From Anaerolineae bacterium (GTDB lineage Bacteria; Chloroflexota; Anaerolineae; Aggregatilineales; Phototrophicaceae), in contig JADLAY010000069.1 in the NCBI GenBank assembly GCA_020849765.1, forward strand, positions 62,001-126,000: a stretch of DNA of 64,000 nt, in the 5' to 3' direction. Positions 8,917-22,569 of the stretch are shown in pieces. The number at the start of each line of letters is the position of its first letter. Within the stretch, counting starts at the first letter, position 1. A model generated the notes under the pieces. The model did no database searches. It was not told the origin of the DNA and saw only the letters and a list, made by a program, of their open reading frames with translations. The position numbers and the translations under genes were made by a program.

Positions 8917-9032
8917 GCTACCAGCGCATCTGTGAGTTGATCGCAACTCGCCACAACGCGCTGCGTAGATCATCTTATATCCACAAGCCTGAGCTTGAGT
9001 CACAGGGGAACATGCTCCCTCAGGAGGAAGCT

Positions 9033-10049
9033 ATGCAAACACAGATCATGGTCGAGGTGCGTGACCTCACCAAGACGTTCAAGGGCAAGAATGGCGCCGA
9101 CATTCAAGCCGTGAAGGGCATCAGCCTGGACATTCGTCACGGCGAAATATACAGCTTGCTCGGCCCCAACGGCGCGGGCAAGACGACAACCATCTCGATG
9201 ATCAGCGGCCTGCTCGCACCGACGCGTGGGGATGCGCGGATCGGCGGGCATTCGATCACGAAGGAGCCGCTGCAAGCCAAGCAGCTTCTGGGCGTCGTGC
9301 CCCAGGAGATCGCTCTCTACCCGACGTTGAGTGCGCGCCAGAACCTCGACTTCTTCGGCAAGATGTACGGGCTGTCCGGCAGCGATCTCTCGCGTCGCGT
9401 CGACGAGATCGTCGACTTCGTCGATTTGCGCGAGCGCCAGCACGACCGCATCGAGACATTTTCCGGCGGCATGAAGCGCCGTGTCAATATTGGCGTCGGC
9501 CTTTTGAACAAACCGCAATTGATTTACATGGACGAGCCGACCGTCGGCATTGATCCGCAAAATCGCCGCCGCGTGCTGGATACGGTCAAACGCCTGCAGC
9601 AAGAGATGGGCATGACCGTGCTCTACACGTCGCACCTGATGGAGGAAGTCCAGGAGATCAGCGATCGCATCGCCATCATCGATCACGGCGAGATCATCGC
9701 CGAGGGCACGCTGGGCGAACTGATTCAGCAGATCGGCGAAGAGGATCGCCTGACCTTCAAGGTCGGCACGCAAACGGTGTCCGAGACACTGCTGGCCCGC
9801 TTCCAGCGAGAAGTCGAGGGCGTGACCAGCGCGTCCTACGATCGGCGTGAAATCGCTGACGAAGACAGCACGGCGCTGGCGCACGTCGATGGCGTGGTCA
9901 CGATCATGGCGAAACGCGGGCGCAAGGCCCTGCCAGATCTACTGCGTATCGCCGACGATGCCGGGCTTGATGTGCTTTCGGTCGAAGTGCGCGAACCAGA
10001 CCTGGAAGGGGTGTTCCTGCACCTGACCGGGCGCGCGCTGCGCGACTAG
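9033..10049 (+). CDS. ABC-2 type exporter, ATP-binding protein (DrrA/CcmA-like)
   Basis: ATPase subunit (338 aa) of an ABC exporter. Walker A is LLGPNGAGKTTT, the Q-loop lies in VVPQEIALYPTL, the signature is ETFSGGMKRRVNIG and Walker B is LIYMDEPTVGID. About 100 C-terminal residues after the nucleotide-binding domain resemble the regulatory tail of daunorubicin-type ATPases. The ATG at 9033 is preferred because AGGAGG lies just upstream; a longer frame back to 8937 has no family match. It is the first gene of an operon with two permeases starting 11 and about 1,350 bases beyond its stop. Export of a drug, lipid or polysaccharide is plausible; the cargo cannot be told. Confidence 0.93.
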   Translation: MQTQIMVEVRDLTKTFKGKNGADIQAVKGISLDIRHGEIYSLLGPNGAGKTTTISMISGLLAPTRGDARIGGHSITKEPLQAKQLLGVVPQEIALYPTLSARQNLDFFGKMYGLSGSDLSRRVDEIVDFVDLRERQHDRIETFSGGMKRRVNIGVGLLNKPQLIYMDEPTVGIDPQNRRRVLDTVKRLQQEMGMTVLYTSHLMEEVQEISDRIAIIDHGEIIAEGTLGELIQQIGEEDRLTFKVGTQTVSETLLARFQREVEGVTSASYDRREIADEDSTALAHVDGVVTIMAKRGRKALPDLLRIADDAGLDVLSVEVREPDLEGVFLHLTGRALRD

Positions 10050-10060
10050 GGGGTGCATTC

Positions 10061-11386
10061 ATGCGTAAAATACTCGCCATTACCTGGAAAGACCTGTACA
10101 CAACCTTCACCGATCGCAACCTGATCCTGATCATGATCGTGACGCCGCTCGCGCTCTCGACCATCATCGGCTCGGCCTTCAGCGGCTTCATCGGCGGCGG
10201 CGGCAACGATGTGCCCGTGCGCGATATCCCGATTGCGCTGGTCAATCTCGACCAGGGCGGCAATGCCAACGGGCAAGACGTCAACTACGGTCAGATGTTT
10301 GTCGATTTGCTCATCCCGACCAGAACCAACACCTCCAGCCCGCTGCTCGCCCTGACGGATGCGACGCTGCTCGGCAACGCAGCGGCGGCCAGAGCGAGCG
10401 TGAACAGCGGCTCGAAAAGCGTCGCCATCATCATCCCGGAGGATTACACCTCCAGCCTGACTTACAGCCAGGATCACCCTGACGTGCGCGTCTCGCCGAT
10501 CGAGGTTTACAGCAGTCCGGCAGCCACAATCAGTGCCGGGATCGTGCGCAGTATCGTCGAGAACATCACCAACACGTTCCTGACCGGCAGCGTCACCGTC
10601 GAGGCCACGATCGAGGCGTTGATCGCCAGGGCGCAGGACGACCCGGCCTTCGGGCTTCAGTTTGGGGTGGCCTCTGCCAGCGGGAGTTTCCAGCCGGATT
10701 TCGCACCCGCCTTCCAGCCTGACGCGGCGCCGATCACGATCGAACAGCAAACCGTGCGCGGCCAGGCGCAGACGTTCAATCCGCTCGTGTTCTTCGGCAG
10801 TGCTCAGGCGCTCTTCTTCATGACGTTCACGGCCATTCAGGGTGCCAACAGCATGCTGGAAGAGCGGCGCGACTGGACTCTGCAGCGCCTGATCGCCTCG
10901 CCGACACCACGCATCACCATTCTGCTGGGCAAGCTGCTCGGCACCTGGGTCACCTGCATCTTTCAGGTCACGCTCTTGTTCATCTTCCTGACCTTGATCG
11001 GCAGCCTGATCGCCGGTGAGCTCCAGTTGATCTGGGGCAGCAACCTGCTCGCGATCCTGGCCGTCATCGTCGCGGCTTCGCTGGCGATGTGTGGCATCGG
11101 CGCGGTCGTCGCCGCGCTCGCGCGCACGCCGGAGCAGGTCAATGTCGTCGGTGGCATCATCGCGATTGCGCTCGGCTTGTTCGGCGGCGCCTTCTTCAAC
11201 ATCCAATCCATCCCGCAGATCGCGCCGATCAGCCGCCTGACGCCGAACTATTGGGGCACAGATGCATTTGCCACGCTCGCCGCCGGGCAGAATGACATTG
11301 GCATGAATCTGGTTGTGCTGACGGTCATCGGCGGGGTGCTCTTCCTGGCCGGGCTGGCGATTTTCAACCGCCGCCTGAGCGTATAA
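10061..11386 (+). CDS. ABC-2 type exporter permease, first subunit
   Basis: Membrane protein (441 aa) of the ABC-2/YhgE type. One transmembrane helix near residues 20-40 (DRNLILIMIVTPLALSTIIG) is followed by a large extracytoplasmic domain of about 200 residues. Five or six helices then fill the C-terminal half, starting near LVFFGSAQALFFMTF. The motif LEERRDWTLQRLIASP before the helices is characteristic of ABC-2 permeases. It lies 11 bases after the ATPase gene with GGGGGTG as ribosome-binding site. It probably forms a heterodimer with the following permease, which has the same architecture. Confidence 0.9.
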   Translation: MRKILAITWKDLYTTFTDRNLILIMIVTPLALSTIIGSAFSGFIGGGGNDVPVRDIPIALVNLDQGGNANGQDVNYGQMFVDLLIPTRTNTSSPLLALTDATLLGNAAAARASVNSGSKSVAIIIPEDYTSSLTYSQDHPDVRVSPIEVYSSPAATISAGIVRSIVENITNTFLTGSVTVEATIEALIARAQDDPAFGLQFGVASASGSFQPDFAPAFQPDAAPITIEQQTVRGQAQTFNPLVFFGSAQALFFMTFTAIQGANSMLEERRDWTLQRLIASPTPRITILLGKLLGTWVTCIFQVTLLFIFLTLIGSLIAGELQLIWGSNLLAILAVIVAASLAMCGIGAVVAALARTPEQVNVVGGIIAIALGLFGGAFFNIQSIPQIAPISRLTPNYWGTDAFATLAAGQNDIGMNLVVLTVIGGVLFLAGLAIFNRRLSV

Positions 11387-11397
11387 GGAGGCCCATC

Positions 11398-12669
11398 ATG
11401 CGTCAAATCATCGAAATTGCTCTCAACGACCTCCGCATCATCTTTCGTGAGCGCGGTATCTGGGTCAATCTGTTCCTGATCCCGCTCGTGCTCACGGTCG
11501 TCATCGGTTTTGCCAACGGCGGTGCCTCATCCGCCAGTGCGCCGTCCGCCGGGCCGAGCATCCTGATCGATGTGATCGACCAGGATAGCAGTGACCTGTC
11601 CGGTCAGTTCCTGGCCGAACTGCGCGCGGCCAACGCGAATTTCGTGCTTTGCCCGCTCGATAATGATGCGGTCGATGTCTGCCAGTTGAACGGGCGCACG
11701 CTCGTCGAACCCGTGGCCGAGACGCGGCTGCAAGAGCAGACCTCGCTCGCGTTAATCGAACTGCCTGCGGGTTTCGGCGCGGCGCTCGATGCGGGCGATG
11801 ATGTCAGCATCGTCTACCGCTCCAACGAAGACGCGACGGCGCCGAGCTACATCCTGCAGGCCGTCCAGGCGACCGTCCAGCGCTTTGGCGCGGCCATCGT
11901 CGCCGGGCAGGTTGGCGGTGACGTAGCCGCCGATACGCCTGGTCTCAATCTCGACGCTGCCGGGCAGGCGCAGTTCGCCGCCGACATTCGCGATCGTGCG
12001 CAGCAAATCCTCAGCCAGCAGCCAGCGGTCGTCACCGCCGTCACCGGCACCGCGCAGGAGGTCGTCGAAAATTCGTCGATGGGGGGCTTCAGCCAGTCCG
12101 TGCCGGGTATGGCGACCATGTATGTGATGTTCGCCGTCTTCCCCGCAGCCGTGGCGCTCATGACCGAGCGCAAACAGGGCACGCTGCAGCGCATGGTCAC
12201 GCTGCCGTTGACGCGCGCACAGCTCCTGGGTGGCAAGCTGCTGGCCCGCTTCTTGCTCGGTATGATCCAGTACGGGATTGTGTTCGTCTTCGGCTACTTC
12301 CTGGGTGTTCGCTACGGCAATGATCCGGTCGCGATCGGCCTGACGATGGTGGTCTTCACCTTGTGCATCACCGCGCTGACGCTGGCGCTCTCGACGCTGC
12401 TCAGAAATGAGAATCAGGCGGGCGCCATCACGCTTCTGCTGACTCTGACGCTAGCGCCGCTCGGAGGTGCCTGGTGGCCGCTGGAAGTTGTGCCAGAGTG
12501 GATGCGCAACCTGGGTCACATCTCGCCCGTCGCCTGGGCCATGGACAGCTATTCGTCGCTCATCTTTTTCGATGGGCGACTGGCCGATGTCCTACCCTAT
12601 ATCGGTGTGCTGGCGGCAATGACCGTCGCCTTCTTCCTGCTCGGCATCCTGCGCTTCAAGGTCGAGTAG
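11398..12669 (+). CDS. ABC-2 type exporter permease, second subunit
   Basis: Second membrane subunit (423 aa) with the same plan as its neighbour: one N-terminal helix, a large outer domain at about residues 45-230, then a helical bundle beginning at MYVMFAVFPAAVALM. The ABC-2 motif TERKQGTLQRMVTLPLTR is present. The ATG follows the previous stop by 11 bases with TAAGGAGG as ribosome-binding site, so the three genes form one operon. A 14-bp stem terminator closes it. The two permeases are clearly diverged from each other, which suggests an obligate heterodimer. Confidence 0.9.
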   Translation: MRQIIEIALNDLRIIFRERGIWVNLFLIPLVLTVVIGFANGGASSASAPSAGPSILIDVIDQDSSDLSGQFLAELRAANANFVLCPLDNDAVDVCQLNGRTLVEPVAETRLQEQTSLALIELPAGFGAALDAGDDVSIVYRSNEDATAPSYILQAVQATVQRFGAAIVAGQVGGDVAADTPGLNLDAAGQAQFAADIRDRAQQILSQQPAVVTAVTGTAQEVVENSSMGGFSQSVPGMATMYVMFAVFPAAVALMTERKQGTLQRMVTLPLTRAQLLGGKLLARFLLGMIQYGIVFVFGYFLGVRYGNDPVAIGLTMVVFTLCITALTLALSTLLRNENQAGAITLLLTLTLAPLGGAWWPLEVVPEWMRNLGHISPVAWAMDSYSSLIFFDGRLADVLPYIGVLAAMTVAFFLLGILRFKVE

Positions 12670-13634: not shown

Positions 13635-14105
13635 ATGGCATGGTGGGGAACGCGCAGTAACGTGTCGCCGCGCTTACGCCTGGAAGTCGAAGCAATGCGT
13701 GCCACCTTTGGCAGCACCTTTCGCCTGGTCGTGCCAACGGGCGCCGACTTGTTGTATTGGTTGGGTGATGTAGATGTCAACCTGGCCACGTTGCGCCAGC
13801 GGGCACACACCGTTCGCATCCTGTATCCGGCGGATTATCCAAGCCGTCCGGCGGAAGCGTACGTGCTGCAGCCCAAGATCTATAGCGAGAAGCATCAGTA
13901 TGAGGATGGACAGCTTTGCCTGTTCAATCCCAAAGATGGTGAACATTATGGCTGGAATCCAAGCCGGTCGACGGCTGTGACGGTTGCCGCGTGGGCCGTC
14001 CAGTGGATTTATGCCTACTACACATGGCGCGCAACCGGGGAATGGCCCGGCATTGAAGAACGTGTCGATCCGAATACGCCCTTGCCGCCAAGACGACGGA
14101 GGTAG
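13635..14105 (+). CDS. E2-like (UBC-fold) conjugating-enzyme family protein
   Basis: A 156-residue protein resembling bacterial relatives of ubiquitin-conjugating E2 enzymes, which carry a modifier as a Cys thioester. The central part shows the UBC pattern: a strand (VRILYPADYP), a Pro-rich turn, YVLQPKIY, then H87 and, after EDGQ, the candidate catalytic Cys95 in LCLFNP. A helical C-terminus with AVQWIYAYYTW and GEWPG follows, as in several prokaryotic E2 families. Start: ATG with GAGGAG 8 bases upstream. It is the first gene of a five-gene unit with JAB-like, E1-like, disordered and PCMT-like proteins; the next start is 6 bases past its stop. Family assignment is by motif reading and operon context. 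Confidence 0.78.
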   Translation: MAWWGTRSNVSPRLRLEVEAMRATFGSTFRLVVPTGADLLYWLGDVDVNLATLRQRAHTVRILYPADYPSRPAEAYVLQPKIYSEKHQYEDGQLCLFNPKDGEHYGWNPSRSTAVTVAAWAVQWIYAYYTWRATGEWPGIEERVDPNTPLPPRRRR

Positions 14106-14111
14106 CCCTCG

Positions 14112-15272
14112 ATGTTGGCGCGACGATTGCAACAAATAGTGCGTGGTCCTGGCGCACCGAATCTGGTGGTCGCTCAGCGCGTCATCGACAAGATGGCGAC
14201 CGCGGCGAATCAGCACCTGGAAGACGAAACAGGCGAGGCGATGGTAGGCTTCATCGTGCCGCCTTCGCTGCCGAATGGCGTGCCGACGATCTACGTCCTC
14301 GACACGATCTCGCCGGATAGCAGCGCCGTGCGCCAGTTTCACACCTTTCAGCAAGGTGACGATCGCCAGGGCGATATCTTCCAGTGGCTCTACAACAACT
14401 GGGAAGTCCAGCGTGGGCGCCAGCGTGGCGGCCTCAACAAGATGCTCCACAGCAAGTGGAACGTGCCGCTCAAGCACCTGGGCGATTGGCACAAGCAGCC
14501 GGGCTACATGATCCAGCCGAGCGGCGGCGACCTGATGACGGCGCTCGACTGCCTGGAGGATGGCTTCGACTTCCTGGTCGCCCCTATCCTGACGCTGGAT
14601 CACCCGACAACGATCGGCATGACGAACGCGGTCACGAATTTCGTGCTCGTGCCGGATGACGACGGTACGGCGCTGCGCGTGGACTTCTGGTATATCGATC
14701 TGATGACGCGCTTCTTCGTCCCTATCATCCCGGCCATCTATCCCACCGATCAGCTTCCAGAGTTGTTCCCCTATCCGTGGCATCTGGAACGCGAATCGCT
14801 GGCGCGCGAAGAGTTCGGCCTGATGCAGGATGACGGCCTGGCGCTTTCGATCACACACTGGGATGCCGACGGCGAACTGCCGCTGGAAGTGTGCGTGCTC
14901 ACGATGCGCGTCGGCTCGAACAAGATGATCATCCTGGTGACGCCGCATAACTTCCCCAGGAAACCGGCCTCGGCGCGCGTCGCGCCGGTCGTGCCCATGG
15001 GCGATGCCGACGATATGCAGACGGTCTTCGAGAAGGCGTGGGAAAAATCCCAGCCGGTCGATCTGCCCTACGACGCTGATAAGTATCCGACGCTGCTGGC
15101 TTACCTTCATGCCATCGAGGACAAGCTGGGCATCCAGCGCGTGGCTCACCCGCCCGTGACGACGGAAGCGCCGAAGGGCGAGCCGAGCGAACCCGGCGCA
15201 CCGAAAGAGGAAAGTCCACAGCCCGTGAGCGAGGTCGAAAAAGACGCGCCAGAAACGGAGGATGCGTCATGA
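14112..15272 (+). CDS. JAB/MPN (Mov34) domain protein with altered JAMM motif
   Basis: A 386-residue protein whose first 150 residues resemble JAB metalloproteases that cut modifiers from targets or mature them. The JAMM elements are E39 in ETGEAMVG and the stretch from H127 to D140 (GDWHKQPG then PSGGD). The spacing H-x-[H]-x7-S-x2-D is exact, but the second His is Gln129, which may weaken or abolish zinc binding. Residues 150-330 form an unrecognised domain; the last 40 residues are an acidic Pro/Glu tail. The E2 gene ends 6 bases upstream with GGAGG in its last codons, and the stop overlaps the E1 start as ATGA. Activity as a peptidase is uncertain. Confidence 0.72.
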   Translation: MLARRLQQIVRGPGAPNLVVAQRVIDKMATAANQHLEDETGEAMVGFIVPPSLPNGVPTIYVLDTISPDSSAVRQFHTFQQGDDRQGDIFQWLYNNWEVQRGRQRGGLNKMLHSKWNVPLKHLGDWHKQPGYMIQPSGGDLMTALDCLEDGFDFLVAPILTLDHPTTIGMTNAVTNFVLVPDDDGTALRVDFWYIDLMTRFFVPIIPAIYPTDQLPELFPYPWHLERESLAREEFGLMQDDGLALSITHWDADGELPLEVCVLTMRVGSNKMIILVTPHNFPRKPASARVAPVVPMGDADDMQTVFEKAWEKSQPVDLPYDADKYPTLLAYLHAIEDKLGIQRVAHPPVTTEAPKGEPSEPGAPKEESPQPVSEVEKDAPETEDAS

Positions 15273-16189
15273 CGTGGGATCGCGTGGCTGGCAAGCTGGG
15301 TGCGGAGAACCTGGCACTGCTGGCGCAAAAGCGCGTTGGCGTAGTCGGGCTGGGGTCGGGTGGCAGCTTTGTCGCGCTCAGCCTGGCGATGAGCGGCGTC
15401 GGTCACTTCGTGCTGATCGACTCGGACGTGCTGGAAACAGGCAATGTCGTGCGTCACGCCGCCGATTTGCGTGACGTCGGCAAGCCGAAAGTCGAGGCGG
15501 TGGCCGAACTCATTCACCAGCGCAACCCGAATGCCGTGGTCGAAACGCGCATCGGGCGCATCGAGGCGAATCTGGATGCGCTCGATCATCTGGATGTGCT
15601 CATCGTCGGCGTCGACGGCGAAGGCCCGAAGTATGTCATCAATCAGGCCTGTCTCACGCGCGGACTGACCGCCATCTACGCCGGCGTCTACGAGCGCGGC
15701 GAGGGCGGCGACGTCTGCATCATTCAGCCGTATGCCGGGCCGTGCTATGCCTGTTGGGCCGCGGAACTGCGCGAAGGATTGGTCGATCCGCGTGCCGACG
15801 TAGAACTTGATTATGGTATGATCGGCGAAGACGGGACTCTCGAAGCAGAGCCGGGACTCTGGTTGGATGTCGTGCGTGTGGCGGCGGTGCAGGGCGATAT
15901 GGCGCTCAGCTACCTGCTCCGCGCGACGGATGCCAGAAAGCCGATACCCGGTAACACGGTTATCCTGGCGAACAACGTTCTGGAAATTGCCGAAGGCCAC
16001 GACTTGCTGCCCTACAGCGCCGAGTGGATTCAAATCGAACGCGATCCGCATTGCCTGGTCTGCGGCGATGCTGTGCGGGCGGATCGTCTCCAAGAGGGTC
16101 AACCGGAGCTTTCGCTGGCCGATCTCATGCAAGAAGCTGGCATCAGCCTGGAGACGCCGGAACCGGAAGAGGAAGAGCAATCATCATGA
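15269..16189 (+). CDS. E1-like / ThiF family adenylyltransferase
   Basis: A 306-residue Rossmann protein of the ThiF/MoeB/E1 superfamily, which activates the C-terminus of a ubiquitin-like protein by adenylation. Visible are the nucleotide loop VVGLGSGGS (residues 25-33), the acidic pair in LIDSDVLETGN with N59 and R62, and two Cys pairs, C159-x-x-C162 (CYAC) and C262-x-x-C265 (CLVC), that should bind zinc. C150 and C128 are candidates for a catalytic thioester Cys. The last 15 residues are acidic. The start overlaps the JAB gene by ATGA with GGAGG upstream, and the stop overlaps the next start in the same way, so translation is coupled. Confidence 0.9.
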   Translation: MTWDRVAGKLGAENLALLAQKRVGVVGLGSGGSFVALSLAMSGVGHFVLIDSDVLETGNVVRHAADLRDVGKPKVEAVAELIHQRNPNAVVETRIGRIEANLDALDHLDVLIVGVDGEGPKYVINQACLTRGLTAIYAGVYERGEGGDVCIIQPYAGPCYACWAAELREGLVDPRADVELDYGMIGEDGTLEAEPGLWLDVVRVAAVQGDMALSYLLRATDARKPIPGNTVILANNVLEIAEGHDLLPYSAEWIQIERDPHCLVCGDAVRADRLQEGQPELSLADLMQEAGISLETPEPEEEEQSS

Positions 16190-16578
16190 CGGATGAACAA
16201 AACCTGGGCCAAGTGCCACCCGTAAACACAACCGAAACGCCGGACGAACCCATGCCTGAAGTGTCTGATAACGGCGCTCCAACCGAAGCAGCTGCTCCGG
16301 AATCGCCATCTGCCGAAGTCGAGGCGCCGGTCAATACGGCACCGCCGGTCTATTCGGCTCCCGCACAACCGCCGACCATGCCGGAAGATGACGGCTACGG
16401 CGACCGCCTTGAACGCCTGGGAGGCGAACCGGCTCCGGTGATCACGCCTGAGGAGTTCGCGCGCTTGCAGCGGCAGGGGCAGGTCAACATCGACGCGCGT
16501 GGCCGCGTGCGCACGACCCGCCGTAGTGACGCTGAAGCTGGGGTCTCATTGCGCAAACGTCGTGCATGGTATGCCTGA
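16186..16578 (+). CDS. Small Pro/Ala/Glu-rich, probably disordered protein of the E2-JAB-E1 operon
   Basis: I do not recognise this 130-residue protein. Residues 1-70 are rich in Pro, Ala, Glu and Thr and look unstructured. Residues 70-95 (YGDRLERLGGEPAPV, then a short helix ITPEEFARLQRQG) and the basic C-terminus (RTTRRSD, then LRKRRAWYA) are more conserved-looking. No beta-grasp fold is evident. An internal RLGG at residues 77-80 is followed by Glu. The ATG overlaps the E1-like stop as ATGA, which supports a real, coupled gene. The position suggests a substrate, adaptor or modifier precursor of the operon enzymes; this is inference. Confidence 0.75.
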   Translation: MTDEQNLGQVPPVNTTETPDEPMPEVSDNGAPTEAAAPESPSAEVEAPVNTAPPVYSAPAQPPTMPEDDGYGDRLERLGGEPAPVITPEEFARLQRQGQVNIDARGRVRTTRRSDAEAGVSLRKRRAWYA

Positions 16579-16588
16579 TCGAGTGTGA

Positions 16589-17752
16589 ATGCCAACCTAT
16601 ACACCTGAAACATTGATCGCGCGCCTTAAACGTCAAGGCGCGCTGACTGATCCAGCTATCGAGGCGGCCTTTGGCGCCGTGCCTCGTCACGCATTTTTGC
16701 CGGGAGTTCCGCTGCGCAATGTCTATCGCGATGAATCGATTCCGCTCAAGCGCGATGAGCGCGGAGGTGTGACGATTGCATCGACACAGCCGAGCATGAC
16801 GGCGCGTATGTTGGCCCAGCTTGACCTCAAGCCGGGGCACAACGTCTTGCAGGTCGGCGCGGGCAGCGGCTACACCGCCGCGTTGATTCAGCACATCGTC
16901 GGGGCATCAGGGCGCGTGACCGCCATCGAGATTGACCGCGTCACGGCGACGCAGGCGGGCGAAAACCTCCAGCGCGTCCAGATGGGCAGCGTCAATATCG
17001 TCGAAGGCGATGGCACCAGCGGCTATGCGCCGCGCGCGCAGTATGACCGCATCATCGCCAATGGCACGATCTGGGATGTGCCGCTCACCTGGGTGCGACA
17101 GATCAAAACTGATGGCCGTCTCGTCGCGCCGCTGTGGTTGGATGCCCTTCAGTACAGTGCGGCTTTCCGCGTCGAGGCCAACGACAATCTGAGCAGCGAA
17201 TCGAATGAAGCCTGCGCCTTTGTCCCTCTGCGCGGCAGCGCCGAAGGGCCGGGCATGACCGTGCGCATCGGCGGATCGTCGCTCATGCTCACCGGGCAGG
17301 TGAGCCGCCTGGACAGTGCGGCGCTCCACTTGCTGCTCTCGGAAACGGCGGACATTGATTACCTGGGGGCACCGCTCACCGGTCACAAGAGCAAGCGCAA
17401 CTTCCTGCCCTTCTTCATGCTCTATCTGCCGCCGGAATTCGTCTTCTGTCTCTACAATGCCCAGGGCGAACAGCAGCCCTACGGGATGAATCGTCGCGGG
17501 TTTGCCGTGCTTTCGCGTGGCAGCGCTGCTTTTGTGTCGCTAGACGGGGATTTCAAGGCCTGGGTGTTCGGCGGCGCGGATGCGATTGTGGCCGCGCAGG
17601 ATACGTATGCCGCCTGGCTCGCGGCAGGCATGCCCGGCGATGACCGGCTGCGCGTACGCCTGGTCGCGCGTGATGGCAGCCCTTCCCCTGCGCCCGAAGA
17701 TGTGCGTGTCTACCCGCGGACGATCCACGACGCACACGTCTGGCTGGCCTGA
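16589..17752 (+). CDS. PCMT-like (protein-L-isoaspartate O-methyltransferase family) enzyme with C-terminal extension
   Basis: A 387-residue SAM-dependent methyltransferase. The N-terminal 210 residues follow the PCMT pattern: substrate-side motif STQPSMTARMLAQLDL, SAM loop VLQVGAGSGYTAALI and acidic strand end VTAIEID. Classical PCMT is about 210 residues; here about 170 more residues form an unrecognised domain. Similar two-part PCMT homologues are known in some peptide-modification (RiPP) pathways, where they methylate Asp in a peptide substrate. The ATG is 10 bases after the small disordered protein gene, so it closes the E2/JAB/E1 operon. Repair of isoaspartate is one option; modification of the disordered protein is another. 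Confidence 0.82.
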   Translation: MPTYTPETLIARLKRQGALTDPAIEAAFGAVPRHAFLPGVPLRNVYRDESIPLKRDERGGVTIASTQPSMTARMLAQLDLKPGHNVLQVGAGSGYTAALIQHIVGASGRVTAIEIDRVTATQAGENLQRVQMGSVNIVEGDGTSGYAPRAQYDRIIANGTIWDVPLTWVRQIKTDGRLVAPLWLDALQYSAAFRVEANDNLSSESNEACAFVPLRGSAEGPGMTVRIGGSSLMLTGQVSRLDSAALHLLLSETADIDYLGAPLTGHKSKRNFLPFFMLYLPPEFVFCLYNAQGEQQPYGMNRRGFAVLSRGSAAFVSLDGDFKAWVFGGADAIVAAQDTYAAWLAAGMPGDDRLRVRLVARDGSPSPAPEDVRVYPRTIHDAHVWLA

Positions 17753-17754
17753 TG

Positions 17755-19011
17755 TCAGCCTGAGTCGGCCATGCGCGCCTGGACGCTGTCGATGATGGTT
17801 TCCGCTTCCGCCAGGATCTGCGCGCGTCGCTCGCCCTCGAACTGCTTGCTGATCATGTAGCGCTCCAACAATTCGAGATCGGTCAGGCCTTCGGGGTTGT
17901 CGCCCAGACGCGCGCGCGCAGGCTCGTCGATCTCTTTGCGGATGGCAGCCACGCTGCTGACACGCGCGCGTCGCAGTGCATCGCGCACGATGCCTTCGTT
18001 GAAACGCGCCTCTGTCTCCGGCGTCAGCTTCAAAATCAGGCGGACGATGGCCTCTTCAAGTTTGTATTCTTCAATCAGGTCGACGGTCTCGGCAGTGGGG
18101 TCGCTGCTTTCGCGCAGGTCGGCTTCGAGCGTGACGAACGGGCGGCTGTCCACAGGGATGAAGCGCCACTGTGTCTCGCCACGTGCCAACTCGACCCAGC
18201 AAAAGCCCTTCGGATCGCCCTCTTCGCCGAAGTCGATCCGTTCGAGACTGCCGCTGTAGATCACCGGCGGCACCCCATCGCGCCCGTGCGTCAGATTTTG
18301 ATGTTTGTGGATGTGCCCCAGCGCGACGTAATCCCAACGCGGATCGGCCACGGCGGACGGCAGCACCTGGATATCGCGTCCCAGCATAATGCCGCGCTCG
18401 CTGCCGAAGATCGCGCCGTTGATGGTGAAGTGCCCTGTCAGCAGCCGTGGCAGATCGTGCGCGTCGGCTTCCTCGGCCAGCGTCTCCAGAATCTGCGCCA
18501 GATCGCTTTGCAGGCGCCCGTCGATCTCGGCAATCGTCAGGCCGCGTGTGCGCTCGTCGTCGATGATGCGCGAGCGAATCGGGTAGGGCGCCGCCCCGAC
18601 GACCACGTCACCGCGCTTGGTCGAGATGACGCGCGTCTCGTAAGTATCGGCCACCCAGACGTTCGGCACCGCCAGCGTATCGTAAATTTCGATGGACGAG
18701 GCCTTGAGCTGATTCGGCGACATATCGTGATTGCCGACCAGCATCACCAACGGCGCCAACTGCGAAAGATCGCGCACACGGTAGGCGAACTCGCGCTGAT
18801 AGGTGGGATTCGGCGCGCGGGTCTTGAACGCATCCCCGGCAAAGATGATCAGATCGACGTCATGCTCCGCTCCATAGGCAATGATCTCGTCGAGCCGGTG
18901 CAGAAAATCGCGCACGCGGCTGCTATACCCCGTTTCCGGGTCGAACTTGCCATAATTTTCCATGCCGACGTGAATATCGGCGAAGTGGAGGACGCGAATG
19001 GGGTCGGTCAT
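17755..19011 (-). CDS. sbcD: SbcD/Mre11-like metallophosphoesterase (DNA repair exonuclease)
   Basis: A 418-residue calcineurin-like phosphoesterase of the SbcD/Mre11 family, which with SbcC trims DNA ends. The five phosphoesterase motifs are visible: HFADIHVG (D12, H14), IFAGDAF, MLVGNHDMS, LLTGHFTI and ALGHIHKHQ. The remaining 190 residues form a capping and regulatory region. No sbcC gene is adjacent, which is unusual. Its stop lies 2 bases from that of the convergent PCMT-like gene. The gene is divergent from the large histidine kinase across a 177-base spacer. Confidence 0.88.
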   Translation of the reverse strand: MTDPIRVLHFADIHVGMENYGKFDPETGYSSRVRDFLHRLDEIIAYGAEHDVDLIIFAGDAFKTRAPNPTYQREFAYRVRDLSQLAPLVMLVGNHDMSPNQLKASSIEIYDTLAVPNVWVADTYETRVISTKRGDVVVGAAPYPIRSRIIDDERTRGLTIAEIDGRLQSDLAQILETLAEEADAHDLPRLLTGHFTINGAIFGSERGIMLGRDIQVLPSAVADPRWDYVALGHIHKHQNLTHGRDGVPPVIYSGSLERIDFGEEGDPKGFCWVELARGETQWRFIPVDSRPFVTLEADLRESSDPTAETVDLIEEYKLEEAIVRLILKLTPETEARFNEGIVRDALRRARVSSVAAIRKEIDEPARARLGDNPEGLTDLELLERYMISKQFEGERRAQILAEAETIIDSVQARMADSG

Positions 19012-19188: not shown

Positions 19189-22100
19189 ATGCCTCAGCGC
19201 GTATTCGAAACACTCATTTTCTGGACACTGCTCGTCGTCACGGGGGTTGCGCTGATTGTGGACCTGCCCGATGCCGCTACCCTGACGCAATACGCAGGCC
19301 CGCTACTCTTGTATGTGTCGCTGACCGCGTTCGCGCTGATATTTAGTGCGGCGCTGGTGCAAGGTGAACTCAGCGCTGCTCACGCGGTGGGTATCCTGGC
19401 CGCCCTGTCTTTGCCGTCAGCCGCTCATGGCGCGGTCACGTGGGCCTTGGCCCTCGGCGGCCTCGTCGGCGGCGCCATCGTCGTCTTCACGGGCGACCGG
19501 CGGCTGCCCTGGCAGCGCCCGCAAGAACGCACGCTGAGTGCGATGCTTCTGATCGTCGTTCGCGTCACACTGTCCTTTTTCCTGGCGACCGGGCTGTACG
19601 AGGCGCTCGGTGGCGGGCTGCCGATCCAGCTCGACAGCATGGAGCACGTGCTGTGGGTGGTCGGGTTCTGCGTCCTCTATACCGCCATTTATCTGACCCT
19701 GTTCTTGCTCGAAATGTATGGCCGTGACTACGGGATGCGCCACATCGTGCGCGTGAATCTGCTCGAAGTCCTGACGGTTCTGGGGCTGCCGCTGCCCTTG
19801 TCCGTGTTGGGCGCGCACATCTACACCAATTTAACCCTGCTGGCTTTCGCCATTTGTATGCTCGGTTTGAGCCTCGCCATCGTCGCGCCCTACGTCATCA
19901 GCCGGGCGCAGCAGCGGCTGCGCAAACAGGTGGATGAACTGCGCTCGCTGGCCATCATGAGCCAGGCGATTCGCGCGAACTACCAGTACGACTCGTTGAT
20001 GAACATGGTCTACGGGCAGGTTTCGAGCCTGCTCGACATCAATAACTTCGTCGTCGCGCTCTACGACCCGGATAAGCAGGATCTGGAATATCCGCTGGTC
20101 ATCCGCAACGGCAAAGAGATCAAGCAGCTGGCAGCGCCGCTCCCCGCCAACTCGCCGATCAAGCGTGTGATCGAAACGCAGCAGCCGCTGCTGCTGGCGC
20201 GCGATGCGCAGAAGGACGGCTGGGTGCGCGGGCTATCCGTGCCGGAGGGCGATTATTCGTGGCTGGGTGTGCCCTTGCAGGCTGGGGGCAGCCTCCTGGG
20301 CGTGATGGTGGTCACGTCGCCCAACCAGCGGCGCGTATTCACCGCGGATGATTTGCGTTTGCTCAATATTGTCGCCGCCAGCACCAGCGTGGCGCTTGAA
20401 AACAGCCTGCTCTACGATCAGCAGAAGAAACGCGCCCTCAAACTGACGCAACTCAATACGGTGCTGGCCCAGTTGACCGAAACGCTGTCGCCGGATGCCG
20501 TGCTCGAAACGATCGTTAAGGAAGCGACCCGGCTGGCCAATGCCGACGCCGCGGCCGTGATGCTGGTCAAGAACGGCGATAACATCCCCCGGCTCGCCCA
20601 AAGCGTGGGGATGAGCGATGCGTTCAAGGCGAAGGTGTCCACACCGCTCATCTTCAATCACAATGTCTCGCCGACGCAATCCAGCCCGCTGCTGATCCCG
20701 GATGTGCGCGGCGACAATCGCGCGGTGTCCGTCCGCGATGCGGCGCTGACCGAAGGCTTCTCGTCCTGGATCGAACTGCCGCTGGTGGTCGGTGGCAGCC
20801 GTATTGGCGTGCTGTCGCTGTATTTCCGGCAGGTGCATAAGTTCATCGACGAGGATGTCGAGGTGCTGCGCGCCTTCGCGACCCAGTCGTCGCAGGCGAT
20901 TCAGAATGCCTACACCTTCCATCACGCGGACGAAGCGCTGTCACGGCGTGTCGGGCAGATGCTGGCGTTGGCGACCATCAGCCACGAACTCACGGCCACG
21001 CTCGACATGCGCACGATTTGCGGCCTGGTGCTGGAATTCGCGCTCAATGCGACCTTCACCCACGTCGGCACGATTATGCTGCGCGATGAGTTCGACGAGC
21101 TGGACGTGATCTCGCAGTATGGCTATCCGCTGGAAACTGTCTCGCGCCGCGAGATCGTGCAGCAGCAGGTCACGATGACCGCGCTCGTGAGCGGCGAACC
21201 GATGCTGATCGGGAATATCGCTGACCATCCTGAGATCACGCCGACGGTGCCGGAACTGCGCTCACAGATGGCCGTGCCGATCGTGCGGCGCGGCGAGGTG
21301 TTGGGCGTCATCACGCTTGAGAGCGAGGACGTGGGTTTCTTCAACGAAGAGGATACCCAGTTCGTCCAGCAGCTTGCGGATCAGGCGGTCATCGCCATCG
21401 ACAATACGCAGCTCTTCCAACGCATGAAAGAAGCGCGCGACCGCGTGCAGCTCATCCTGGACAACATGAGCGAACCCCTGCTCTTGATCGACCGTACGGG
21501 CGTCATTGCGCTGGCGAACCCGCGCATCGACAAGATCGGTTTCCATCCCGACCTGCTGTTGGGACAATCCGTCGAATCGCTGCTGGCGCACGAAGACTTC
21601 CAACTGGCGACGCGCCTGGGTTTCGAATCGGCCAATCATGTGCGCGCTTTGCTGCAGCGCCTGGGTGGGCCGGTCACGCAGCATCAGTACGCACCCTTCG
21701 CCTATGCGCTCGAAAGCAAATCGCAAACGCTCCATCTGCAGCGCAACGTCATCCCGGTCGCTAACGAAGAGGGGATCGTCGTTGCCTTGATGATCGTCTT
21801 CTACGACGAGACCGAGGCGCACGAGCTGGCGCAGGCCCGTGAAGATCTCGTGCGCATGATCGTCCACGATCTGCGCAGCCCGCTGACGGCGGTCACGACC
21901 AGCCTCAAGCTGATGAATGACATCATCCCCGCCGACAGCGAGTACAAAGAAGTGATCGATTCGACCAGCACGGCCGGACGGCGCGCCATTCGCAAGCTGC
22001 TCGACCGCGTCGATTCGCTGCTCGACGTCGCCCGCCTCGAAAGCGGCCAGATTTCGCTCGAAACCAGGACTGCGGAATTGGCGACCATCGTCGACAGCGT

Positions 22101-22569
22101 GTGCGCGGAACTCAGCCCACTGGCGCACGATTTGAACGTTACCGTCGAGACACAGATCCCGACGTCGCTGCCGCTGCTGCATGTTGATGCGGATAAGACC
22201 GAGCGCGTGCTTCTCAACCTGCTCGATAACGCGCTCAAGTTCAGCCCGGAAGAGAGCAGTGTCGTCATCCGCGCGCATACGCCCGGCACTGATGGCGCGG
22301 CGGCTGACTACGTGCGCATCGACGTGGTCGACCTGGGGCCGGGCGTGCCGGAAGAATACAAACTGACGCTGTTCAATCGCTTCGTGCAGGTGCGTGGCCG
22401 CGAGGGACGGCGGCGCGGCTCCGGCCTGGGGCTGACGTTCTGCCGCCTGGTGGTCGAGGCGCATGGTGGCGACATCTGGATTGAAGACAACCCCGCCGGG
22501 GGCACCGTCTTCAGCTTCACGATGCCGATCAGCACGGCGCCCGCCCCGGCACACGACAAGACTGGTTAG
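19189..22569 (+). CDS. Large membrane sensor histidine kinase with GAF and PAS domains
   Basis: A 1,126-residue sensor kinase. The first 235 residues hold about seven hydrophobic helices. Three GAF-like modules follow at about 255-405, 420-580 and 595-745, each with a typical end such as LLNIVAASTSVALENSLLYDQ. A PAS domain lies at about 755-870 (ILDNMSEPLLLIDRTG). The HisKA box MIVHDLRSPLTAV places the phosphorylated His at 893. The ATPase domain shows the N box LLNLLDNALKFSP, DLGPGVPEE and GSGLGLTFCR. No response regulator gene is adjacent, so it is an orphan kinase. The ligand or signal is unknown. The ribosome-binding site before the ATG is weak. Confidence 0.93.
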   Translation: MPQRVFETLIFWTLLVVTGVALIVDLPDAATLTQYAGPLLLYVSLTAFALIFSAALVQGELSAAHAVGILAALSLPSAAHGAVTWALALGGLVGGAIVVFTGDRRLPWQRPQERTLSAMLLIVVRVTLSFFLATGLYEALGGGLPIQLDSMEHVLWVVGFCVLYTAIYLTLFLLEMYGRDYGMRHIVRVNLLEVLTVLGLPLPLSVLGAHIYTNLTLLAFAICMLGLSLAIVAPYVISRAQQRLRKQVDELRSLAIMSQAIRANYQYDSLMNMVYGQVSSLLDINNFVVALYDPDKQDLEYPLVIRNGKEIKQLAAPLPANSPIKRVIETQQPLLLARDAQKDGWVRGLSVPEGDYSWLGVPLQAGGSLLGVMVVTSPNQRRVFTADDLRLLNIVAASTSVALENSLLYDQQKKRALKLTQLNTVLAQLTETLSPDAVLETIVKEATRLANADAAAVMLVKNGDNIPRLAQSVGMSDAFKAKVSTPLIFNHNVSPTQSSPLLIPDVRGDNRAVSVRDAALTEGFSSWIELPLVVGGSRIGVLSLYFRQVHKFIDEDVEVLRAFATQSSQAIQNAYTFHHADEALSRRVGQMLALATISHELTATLDMRTICGLVLEFALNATFTHVGTIMLRDEFDELDVISQYGYPLETVSRREIVQQQVTMTALVSGEPMLIGNIADHPEITPTVPELRSQMAVPIVRRGEVLGVITLESEDVGFFNEEDTQFVQQLADQAVIAIDNTQLFQRMKEARDRVQLILDNMSEPLLLIDRTGVIALANPRIDKIGFHPDLLLGQSVESLLAHEDFQLATRLGFESANHVRALLQRLGGPVTQHQYAPFAYALESKSQTLHLQRNVIPVANEEGIVVALMIVFYDETEAHELAQAREDLVRMIVHDLRSPLTAVTTSLKLMNDIIPADSEYKEVIDSTSTAGRRAIRKLLDRVDSLLDVARLESGQISLETRTAELATIVDSVCAELSPLAHDLNVTVETQIPTSLPLLHVDADKTERVLLNLLDNALKFSPEESSVVIRAHTPGTDGAAADYVRIDVVDLGPGVPEEYKLTLFNRFVQVRGREGRRRGSGLGLTFCRLVVEAHGGDIWIEDNPAGGTVFSFTMPISTAPAPAHDKTG

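Follow-up and report, generated by a model that had tools for sequence, protein, structure and literature searches.

Bacterial operons that combine E1, E2 and JAB proteins have so far been known mostly as sporadic antiviral systems whose client is a CD-NTase or whose modifier has a beta-grasp fold. In type II cyclic oligonucleotide-based anti-phage signalling systems (CBASS), the E1-E2-JAB enzymes conjugate a non-beta-grasp client (PMC10097602). Here we analysed a stretch of 64,000 nucleotides (hereafter the window) from an Anaerolineae bacterium (assembly GCA_020849765.1, contig JADLAY010000069.1, positions 62,001 to 126,000), in which five co-directional genes at 13635-17752 encode an E2-like protein, a JAB protein, an E1-like enzyme, a small protein and a PCMT-like methyltransferase (Table 1). 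An earlier note, made from the letters alone, had given the same five open reading frames (ORFs), with intergenic spacings of 6, -4, -4 and 10 bases, all of which we found as stated. Comparative analysis suggests that the locus is likely to encode a conjugation system in general; with about even confidence, we read it as a membrane-tethered, vertically inherited housekeeping ubiquitin-like conjugation system of the order Aggregatilineales, of which the client is the non-beta-grasp small protein.

Comparison with described conjugation systems

By its enzyme set the locus is ubiquitin-like, and on the features tested it falls outside every named system. With type II CBASS (Cap2 E1-E2 and Cap3 JAB) it shares UBC, ThiF-type E1 and JAB components; the likeness extends to a candidate client without a beta-grasp fold and to the gene 5' of E2, which is often the client. 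However, Cap2 is a fused E1-E2 with a catalytic Cys in E1, whereas E1 and E2 are separate genes here, and the GPGCW segment carried by the Cap2 proteins of two loci (L171 and L172) is absent from the E1s of the order in the same alignment. Moreover, type II CBASS is sporadic and includes a CD-NTase and an effector, whereas the Aggregatilineales system is a universal core trait without either: Pfam and PADLOC detected no CD-NTase in the window operon or its conserved neighbours in 41 locus maps.

The ISG15-like Bil operons, for which our comparison rests on the definitions of a review (PMC11354881), likewise hold E1, E2 and JAMM proteins in one operon. Their E1 consists of IAD, AAD and Cys domains (PMC11354881), in contrast to the single adenylation domain of 306 residues encoded here, and the residues following Cys95 of our E2 misfit the C-x5-E-x-H-x4-H pattern of the Bil CEHH motif (PMC11354881). 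No counterpart of the double ubiquitin-like BilA was found, as the operon gave no Pfam ubiquitin-like match and the AlphaFold2 (AF2) model of the small protein lacks a beta-grasp fold. The JAB, E1 and E2 neighbourhoods of types 6a-6e described by Iyer in 2006, some with inactive RWD-like E2 domains, are similar in composition but sporadic, and none combines a separate E2, a JAB-RWD protein, an E1, an aromatic-tailed small protein and a membrane-protein pair (PMC1779556). MoeB/ThiF, MccB and UBA5 share the CxxC...CxxC adenylation domain, which is here linked instead to UBC and MPN proteins. The best NCBIfam model for the PCMT-like enzyme, TIGR04364 (FxLD methyltransferase), scored 231 bits against a cut-off of 320, and TIGR03736 scored 19.8 bits against 144.75, placing the locus outside the FxLD ribosomally synthesised and post-translationally modified peptides and the PRTRC systems, respectively. 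As for Pup, the small protein has no GG[EQ] tail and the operon enzymes are of E1, E2 and MPN type, PafA not having been searched genome-wide.

According to the earlier note, these genes have neither a CD-NTase nor an effector nor an obvious beta-grasp modifier as neighbours, and the Pfam and PADLOC scans, together with the AF2 model of the small protein, bear this out, as does the comparison above for its view that the locus is neither type II CBASS nor Bil. The UBC, MPN and E1 folds are genuine, and its proposal of an undescribed protein-modification system is probably correct.

The E2, JAB and E1 proteins

A Pfam scan of the operon returned matches for E1 and PCMT only, leaving E2 without a Pfam match. 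PADLOC E2 models nevertheless matched the window E2 at 6.8e-17, and the E2 family profile matched UBE2L3 at 5.8e-5. His87, Asp91 and Cys95 occur without exception in 27 aligned homologues, and Cys95 is kept in all 69 of 69 loci. Judged from profile matches and residue conservation, E2 is a true UBC homologue, in agreement with its first description as an E2-like protein with Cys95. A search of plasmids with E2 gave no match.

The JAB protein matched a PADLOC JAB model at 1.1e-8, and its AF2 model (mean predicted local distance difference test (pLDDT) score 84, predicted template modelling score 0.80) has an MPN fold, with Foldseek matches to BRCC36 (E 4.5e-8) and Rpn11 (E 8.3e-7), which upholds the original JAB/MPN-like assignment. 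Two features had been overlooked. One is a second domain modelled with pLDDT >90 as a helix, four strands and two helices, as in UBC/RWD proteins, its profile aligning with that of E2 in a single hhalign comparison (E 9.3e-5, probability 59%). The other lies in the JAMM motif E...HxH...S..D, where Gln replaces the second His in 63 of 71 loci, with His present in eight, namely seven loci of family f87 and L052. L052, which sits on a long branch within the window's family, shows the canonical HKHP, while its relatives show HKQP.

E1 matched Pfam ThiF at 3.2e-30 and the PADLOC E1 model at 4.4e-30, as expected from its earlier annotation as an E1/ThiF-like enzyme. It is a single MoeB-like adenylation domain with a CxxC...CxxC zinc site, and none of the 67 E1s having both motifs (67/67) carries a Cys between them. 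MccB was the top Protein Data Bank match of the E1 profile (1.3e-19), with UBA5 scoring nearly equal. An SL[DE][DE]L tail is present in 26 of 39 E1s. Single-sequence searching of viral contigs with E1 yielded distant ThiF-like genes only, without E2 or JAB partners.

The small protein and conservation of gene order

The first description of this gene product as a disordered 130-residue protein holds for its N-terminus, which is variable and disordered, but missed an ultra-conserved C-terminal core: the last 57 residues have 77% mean column identity and, on the alignments, are conserved more strongly than any other segment. Against L040, the nearest relative, the window sequence has synonymous changes at 31 of 56 core codons and non-synonymous changes at none, and two further pairs gave 27/0 and 35/0, a codon pattern indicating that the core is under purifying selection. 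Among about 100 distinct small proteins, conservation ends at ...RRAWY, and the 0-29 residues beyond it are unconserved. AF2 modelled helices and a short hairpin only, leaving a beta-grasp fold unsupported, and a helix-turn-helix reading of the RRAWY tail (a MerR-like pattern in L175) was dropped as a chance resemblance. A related motif, VDEAGRIRV...GASLRRRRAWY, was observed just before the C-terminal domain of an RHS-like ORF (L173:3940-5073, genome G438, contig C218; E 1.3e-7), possibly reflecting mimicry of the system or recruitment by it.

Among 41 loci fetched from the order, 38 have the genes in the sequence E2-JAB-E1 and 31 have E1 adjacent to the small protein, which exceeds chance. 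The earlier idea that all five genes are kept together therefore stands for E2, JAB, E1 and the small protein. It fails for the PCMT gene, which directly follows the small protein in only 16/41 loci and is missing from most other lineages; homologous loci not keeping the genes together was the refuting outcome that the earlier note itself had named. The PCMT-like identity of the enzyme is sound (Pfam 6.2e-43), whereas its role as a core partner was rejected on this adjacency. A Nudix gene is present in 23/41 loci.

Distribution and inheritance in Aggregatilineales

Only two genomes in a phylum-wide set of 301 were found to encode the JAB protein, both from the family to which the window belongs, yet within the order it occurs in 137/154 genomes, including 87 of 90 of good quality. 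The small-protein core (135/154) and, by profile search, a tandem pair of related membrane proteins (136/154) are present in the same five families, even when unlinked from the operon, and both are absent from families f85, f86 and f88. The E2-JAB-E1 system is single-copy and near-universal within the order, and in the concatenated E2+JAB+E1 tree f1, f82, f83 and f84 form clades with support of 0.98-1.0, f87 being split solely by the chosen root. None was found beyond the order at the JAB similarity used. When 298 genomes of the class were searched by profile, the matches beyond the order were L170, a distant relative, and two CBASS loci. In a scan covering 84,980 species by one genome apiece, 127 small-protein loci were confirmed; the best 80, which were kept, belong to the window's group, a few of them under unexpected bin names, for example Pleurocapsa. 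Universality and tree topology led us to reject a mobile defence island; on this phylogenetic and distributional pattern the system is a vertically inherited core trait of the order, unlike defence islands, an aspect that the earlier note had missed.

The membrane-protein pair, also missed at first, belongs to the system. One or two of these proteins are commonly encoded 5' of E2 in f82, f83, f84 and f87, whereas in the window's family the pair lies away from the operon (C41:24112-25714 in the window genome, G000). Their N-terminal hydrophobic segments predict membrane anchoring, in an orientation that we infer. Invariance is highest at the C-terminal S-L-x-x-L-L: an SL[DE][DE]L-type tail, a motif common to E1, occurs in 22 of 26 membrane proteins, its S, L and LL being invariant. 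In other orders of the phylum sample, nothing scored above a marginal match. Several members of the window's family encode the SLxxLL pair directly 3' of a KsgA/RsmA-like rRNA methyltransferase gene (L186:8247-10736 on contig C41 of the window genome).

Relatives in other Chloroflexota

E2 profile searches reached loci of other classes. Eleven non-CBASS E2/E1 operons were recovered in other Chloroflexota, and in 10/11 a protein of 50-103 residues is encoded just 5' of E2, compared with 0/7 CBASS-type loci (Fisher p 2.5e-4, a guide value only, as the loci are non-independent); in several of the latter this slot holds the CD-NTase, the conjugated client. The outside small proteins share a layout of helix, variable linker and tail ([SLEELK..L..A..V.VD..G.L], linker, [VKPxRWF]). 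Like the window operon, the small protein-E2-JAB-E1 operons (L170, L209, L210, L228, L229 and L231-L235) have the same enzyme set, aligned E1s without a catalytic Cys and a similar small protein, which in these operons is encoded just 5' of E2. They differ in being sporadic and in their partner proteins, which include membrane/RWD, Band_7, TPR or kinase-WD40 proteins, and some stand beside WXG100-like/YukD genes. Hidden Markov model (HMM) comparison of outside and order small proteins gave best E values of 0.047 and 0.0068 in the two directions, and when 12,400 ORFs were ranked, small proteins of the order filled 36 of the first 40 places. The L170 peptide alone scored an insignificant 0.3 bits against the core, and it was the later loci alone that made the case. 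Burroughs, Iyer and Aravind have reportedly worked on Chloroflexi ubiquitin-like loci, which may cover some of these relatives.

In L233 and L234, from another Chloroflexota family, YukD-like and WXG100-like (type VII secretion) genes lie beside those for the small protein, E2, RWD, JAB and E1. L171 and L172, type II CBASS operons from two genomes of the same class, have HigB-like toxin and helix-turn-helix/M78 peptidase genes as neighbours.

Proposed mechanism and alternative explanations

In the proposed mechanism, the MoeB-like E1 would adenylate the C-terminus of the client, which, because this E1 has no catalytic Cys, would go straight to Cys95 of E2 and be passed on to a target amine. 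Trimming of a precursor or reversal of the link may fall to the MPN-RWD protein, with its RWD domain as a docking module, and the membrane pair encoded elsewhere in the genome would tether the machinery via the SLxxLL tail common to E1. The dedicated client would be the small protein, most likely through its conserved aromatic C-terminal region, much as the CD-NTase is the client of Cap2 in CBASS. A role as modifier, favoured by position, size, disorder, a fixed tail with a variable extension and the CBASS precedent (PMC10097602), comes not far short of an even chance, while an adaptor role is a serious if tentative possibility. It is similarly tentative that the locus represents a distinct Chloroflexota conjugation class with a non-beta-grasp, largely disordered modifier, an [LV][KR][KP]xRxW[FY]-type tail, Cys-less E1-to-E2 transfer, membrane anchoring and a place in the core biology of the order.

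Several observations weigh against this interpretation. In CBASS, conjugation depends on a Gly/Ala at the C-terminus of the client and is abolished by Trp (PMC10097602), whereas the small protein finishes with either an aromatic residue or a variable extension, which disfavours the modifier role. When unlinked, the small protein stays with (PCMT)-Nudix rather than with E2-JAB-E1. Peptidase activity of the JAB protein is uncertain because the zinc-binding HxH is replaced by HKQP in most lineages. Co-occurrence within the order amounts in essence to one evolutionary event, and the membrane pair was found in Aggregatilineales only. Finally, the HMM E values of 0.007-0.05, together with gene position, are weak grounds on which the small proteins of the order might be homologous to those of other classes.

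The missing Gly/Ala also speaks for a somewhat unlikely alternative in which a ThiS/MoaD-type beta-grasp protein encoded elsewhere is the modifier and the small protein is an E3-like adaptor or scaffold of E2, read through its aromatic tail. Two proteins of the window genome scored above the ThiS-family cut-off, the model of the core shows helices and a hairpin rather than a beta-grasp, and such operons were proposed to use available ThiS/MoaD proteins (Iyer 2006, PMC1779556). However, one of the two ThiS-family genes adjoins the other ThiF homologue of the genome, an arrangement known from ordinary sulfur-carrier loci. In addition, the small protein is conserved as strongly as the enzymes, and YukD in L233/L234 is the only obvious beta-grasp gene next to E2 in the non-CBASS relatives examined. 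It is improbable that the small protein is instead an acceptor modified by E2 at the Lys in L[RK]K.R.W: this residue, at K51 of the core, does not vary within the order or in three outside sequences (alignment A9), but L232 has Arg at the same position, and no modifier was found for such an acceptor.

The resemblance of E2, JAB and E1 to PADLOC models drawn from defence systems might suggest a CBASS- or Bil-like anti-phage variant, a reading already disfavoured and quite improbable given the near-universal single copy, the family-congruent tree and the lack of a CD-NTase or effector. Least to be expected is an MccB-like pathway, in which E1 and E2 modify a small molecule or peptide without any protein conjugate and the Nudix and PCMT enzymes act on the product. 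The top rank of MccB, the Cys-less E1 and the frequent linkage of the small protein to Nudix and PCMT genes are consistent with it; against it, UBA5 scores nearly equally, most lineages lack PCMT, and a UBC protein with a catalytic Cys plus an MPN protein points to conjugation and reversal.

A single-copy system near-universal in good genomes of five families would be a bacterial housekeeping ubiquitin-like system, and a defined non-beta-grasp client would broaden the substrate range of E1/E2 enzymes. The parts are compact, and E2 thioester formation, tail dependence, the effect of Q129H and SLxxLL docking are directly testable predictions.

Features of the operon and its surroundings

Table 1 Coordinates of operon features in the window.
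Feature	Position	Strand	Remarks
E2 (UBC-like) gene	13635..14105	+	156 aa
Catalytic Cys95 of E2	codon 13917-13919	+	motif H..(Y/F).DG.LC
JAB protein gene (MPN + UBC/RWD-like)	14112..15272	+	
MPN/JAMM-like domain	14112..14786	+	Glu42, His127, Ser137, Asp140 invariant; Gln129 replaces second zinc His
Cys-less UBC/RWD-like domain	14787..15146	+	JAB residues 226-345; AF2 and hhalign
Disordered tail of JAB protein	RWD-like domain end to 15272	+	
E1-like adenylating enzyme gene	15269..16189	+	306 aa
C-terminal SL[DE][DE]L motif of E1	about 16112-16129	+	SLADLM in window
Small protein gene	16186..16578	+	130 aa; start ATG 16186, 4-base overlap with E1 stop
57-aa core of small protein	16405..16575	+	ends SLRKRRAWY (RRAWY 16558-16572)
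PCMT/FxLD-like methyltransferase gene	16589..17752	+	optional neighbour, outside core

Just upstream of the operon (8937-12669) lie genes for an ATP-binding cassette transporter ATPase followed by two permeases. Downstream, an SbcD-like phosphoesterase is encoded on the minus strand (17755-19011), followed by a large membrane histidine kinase with GAF-like repeats (19189-22569).

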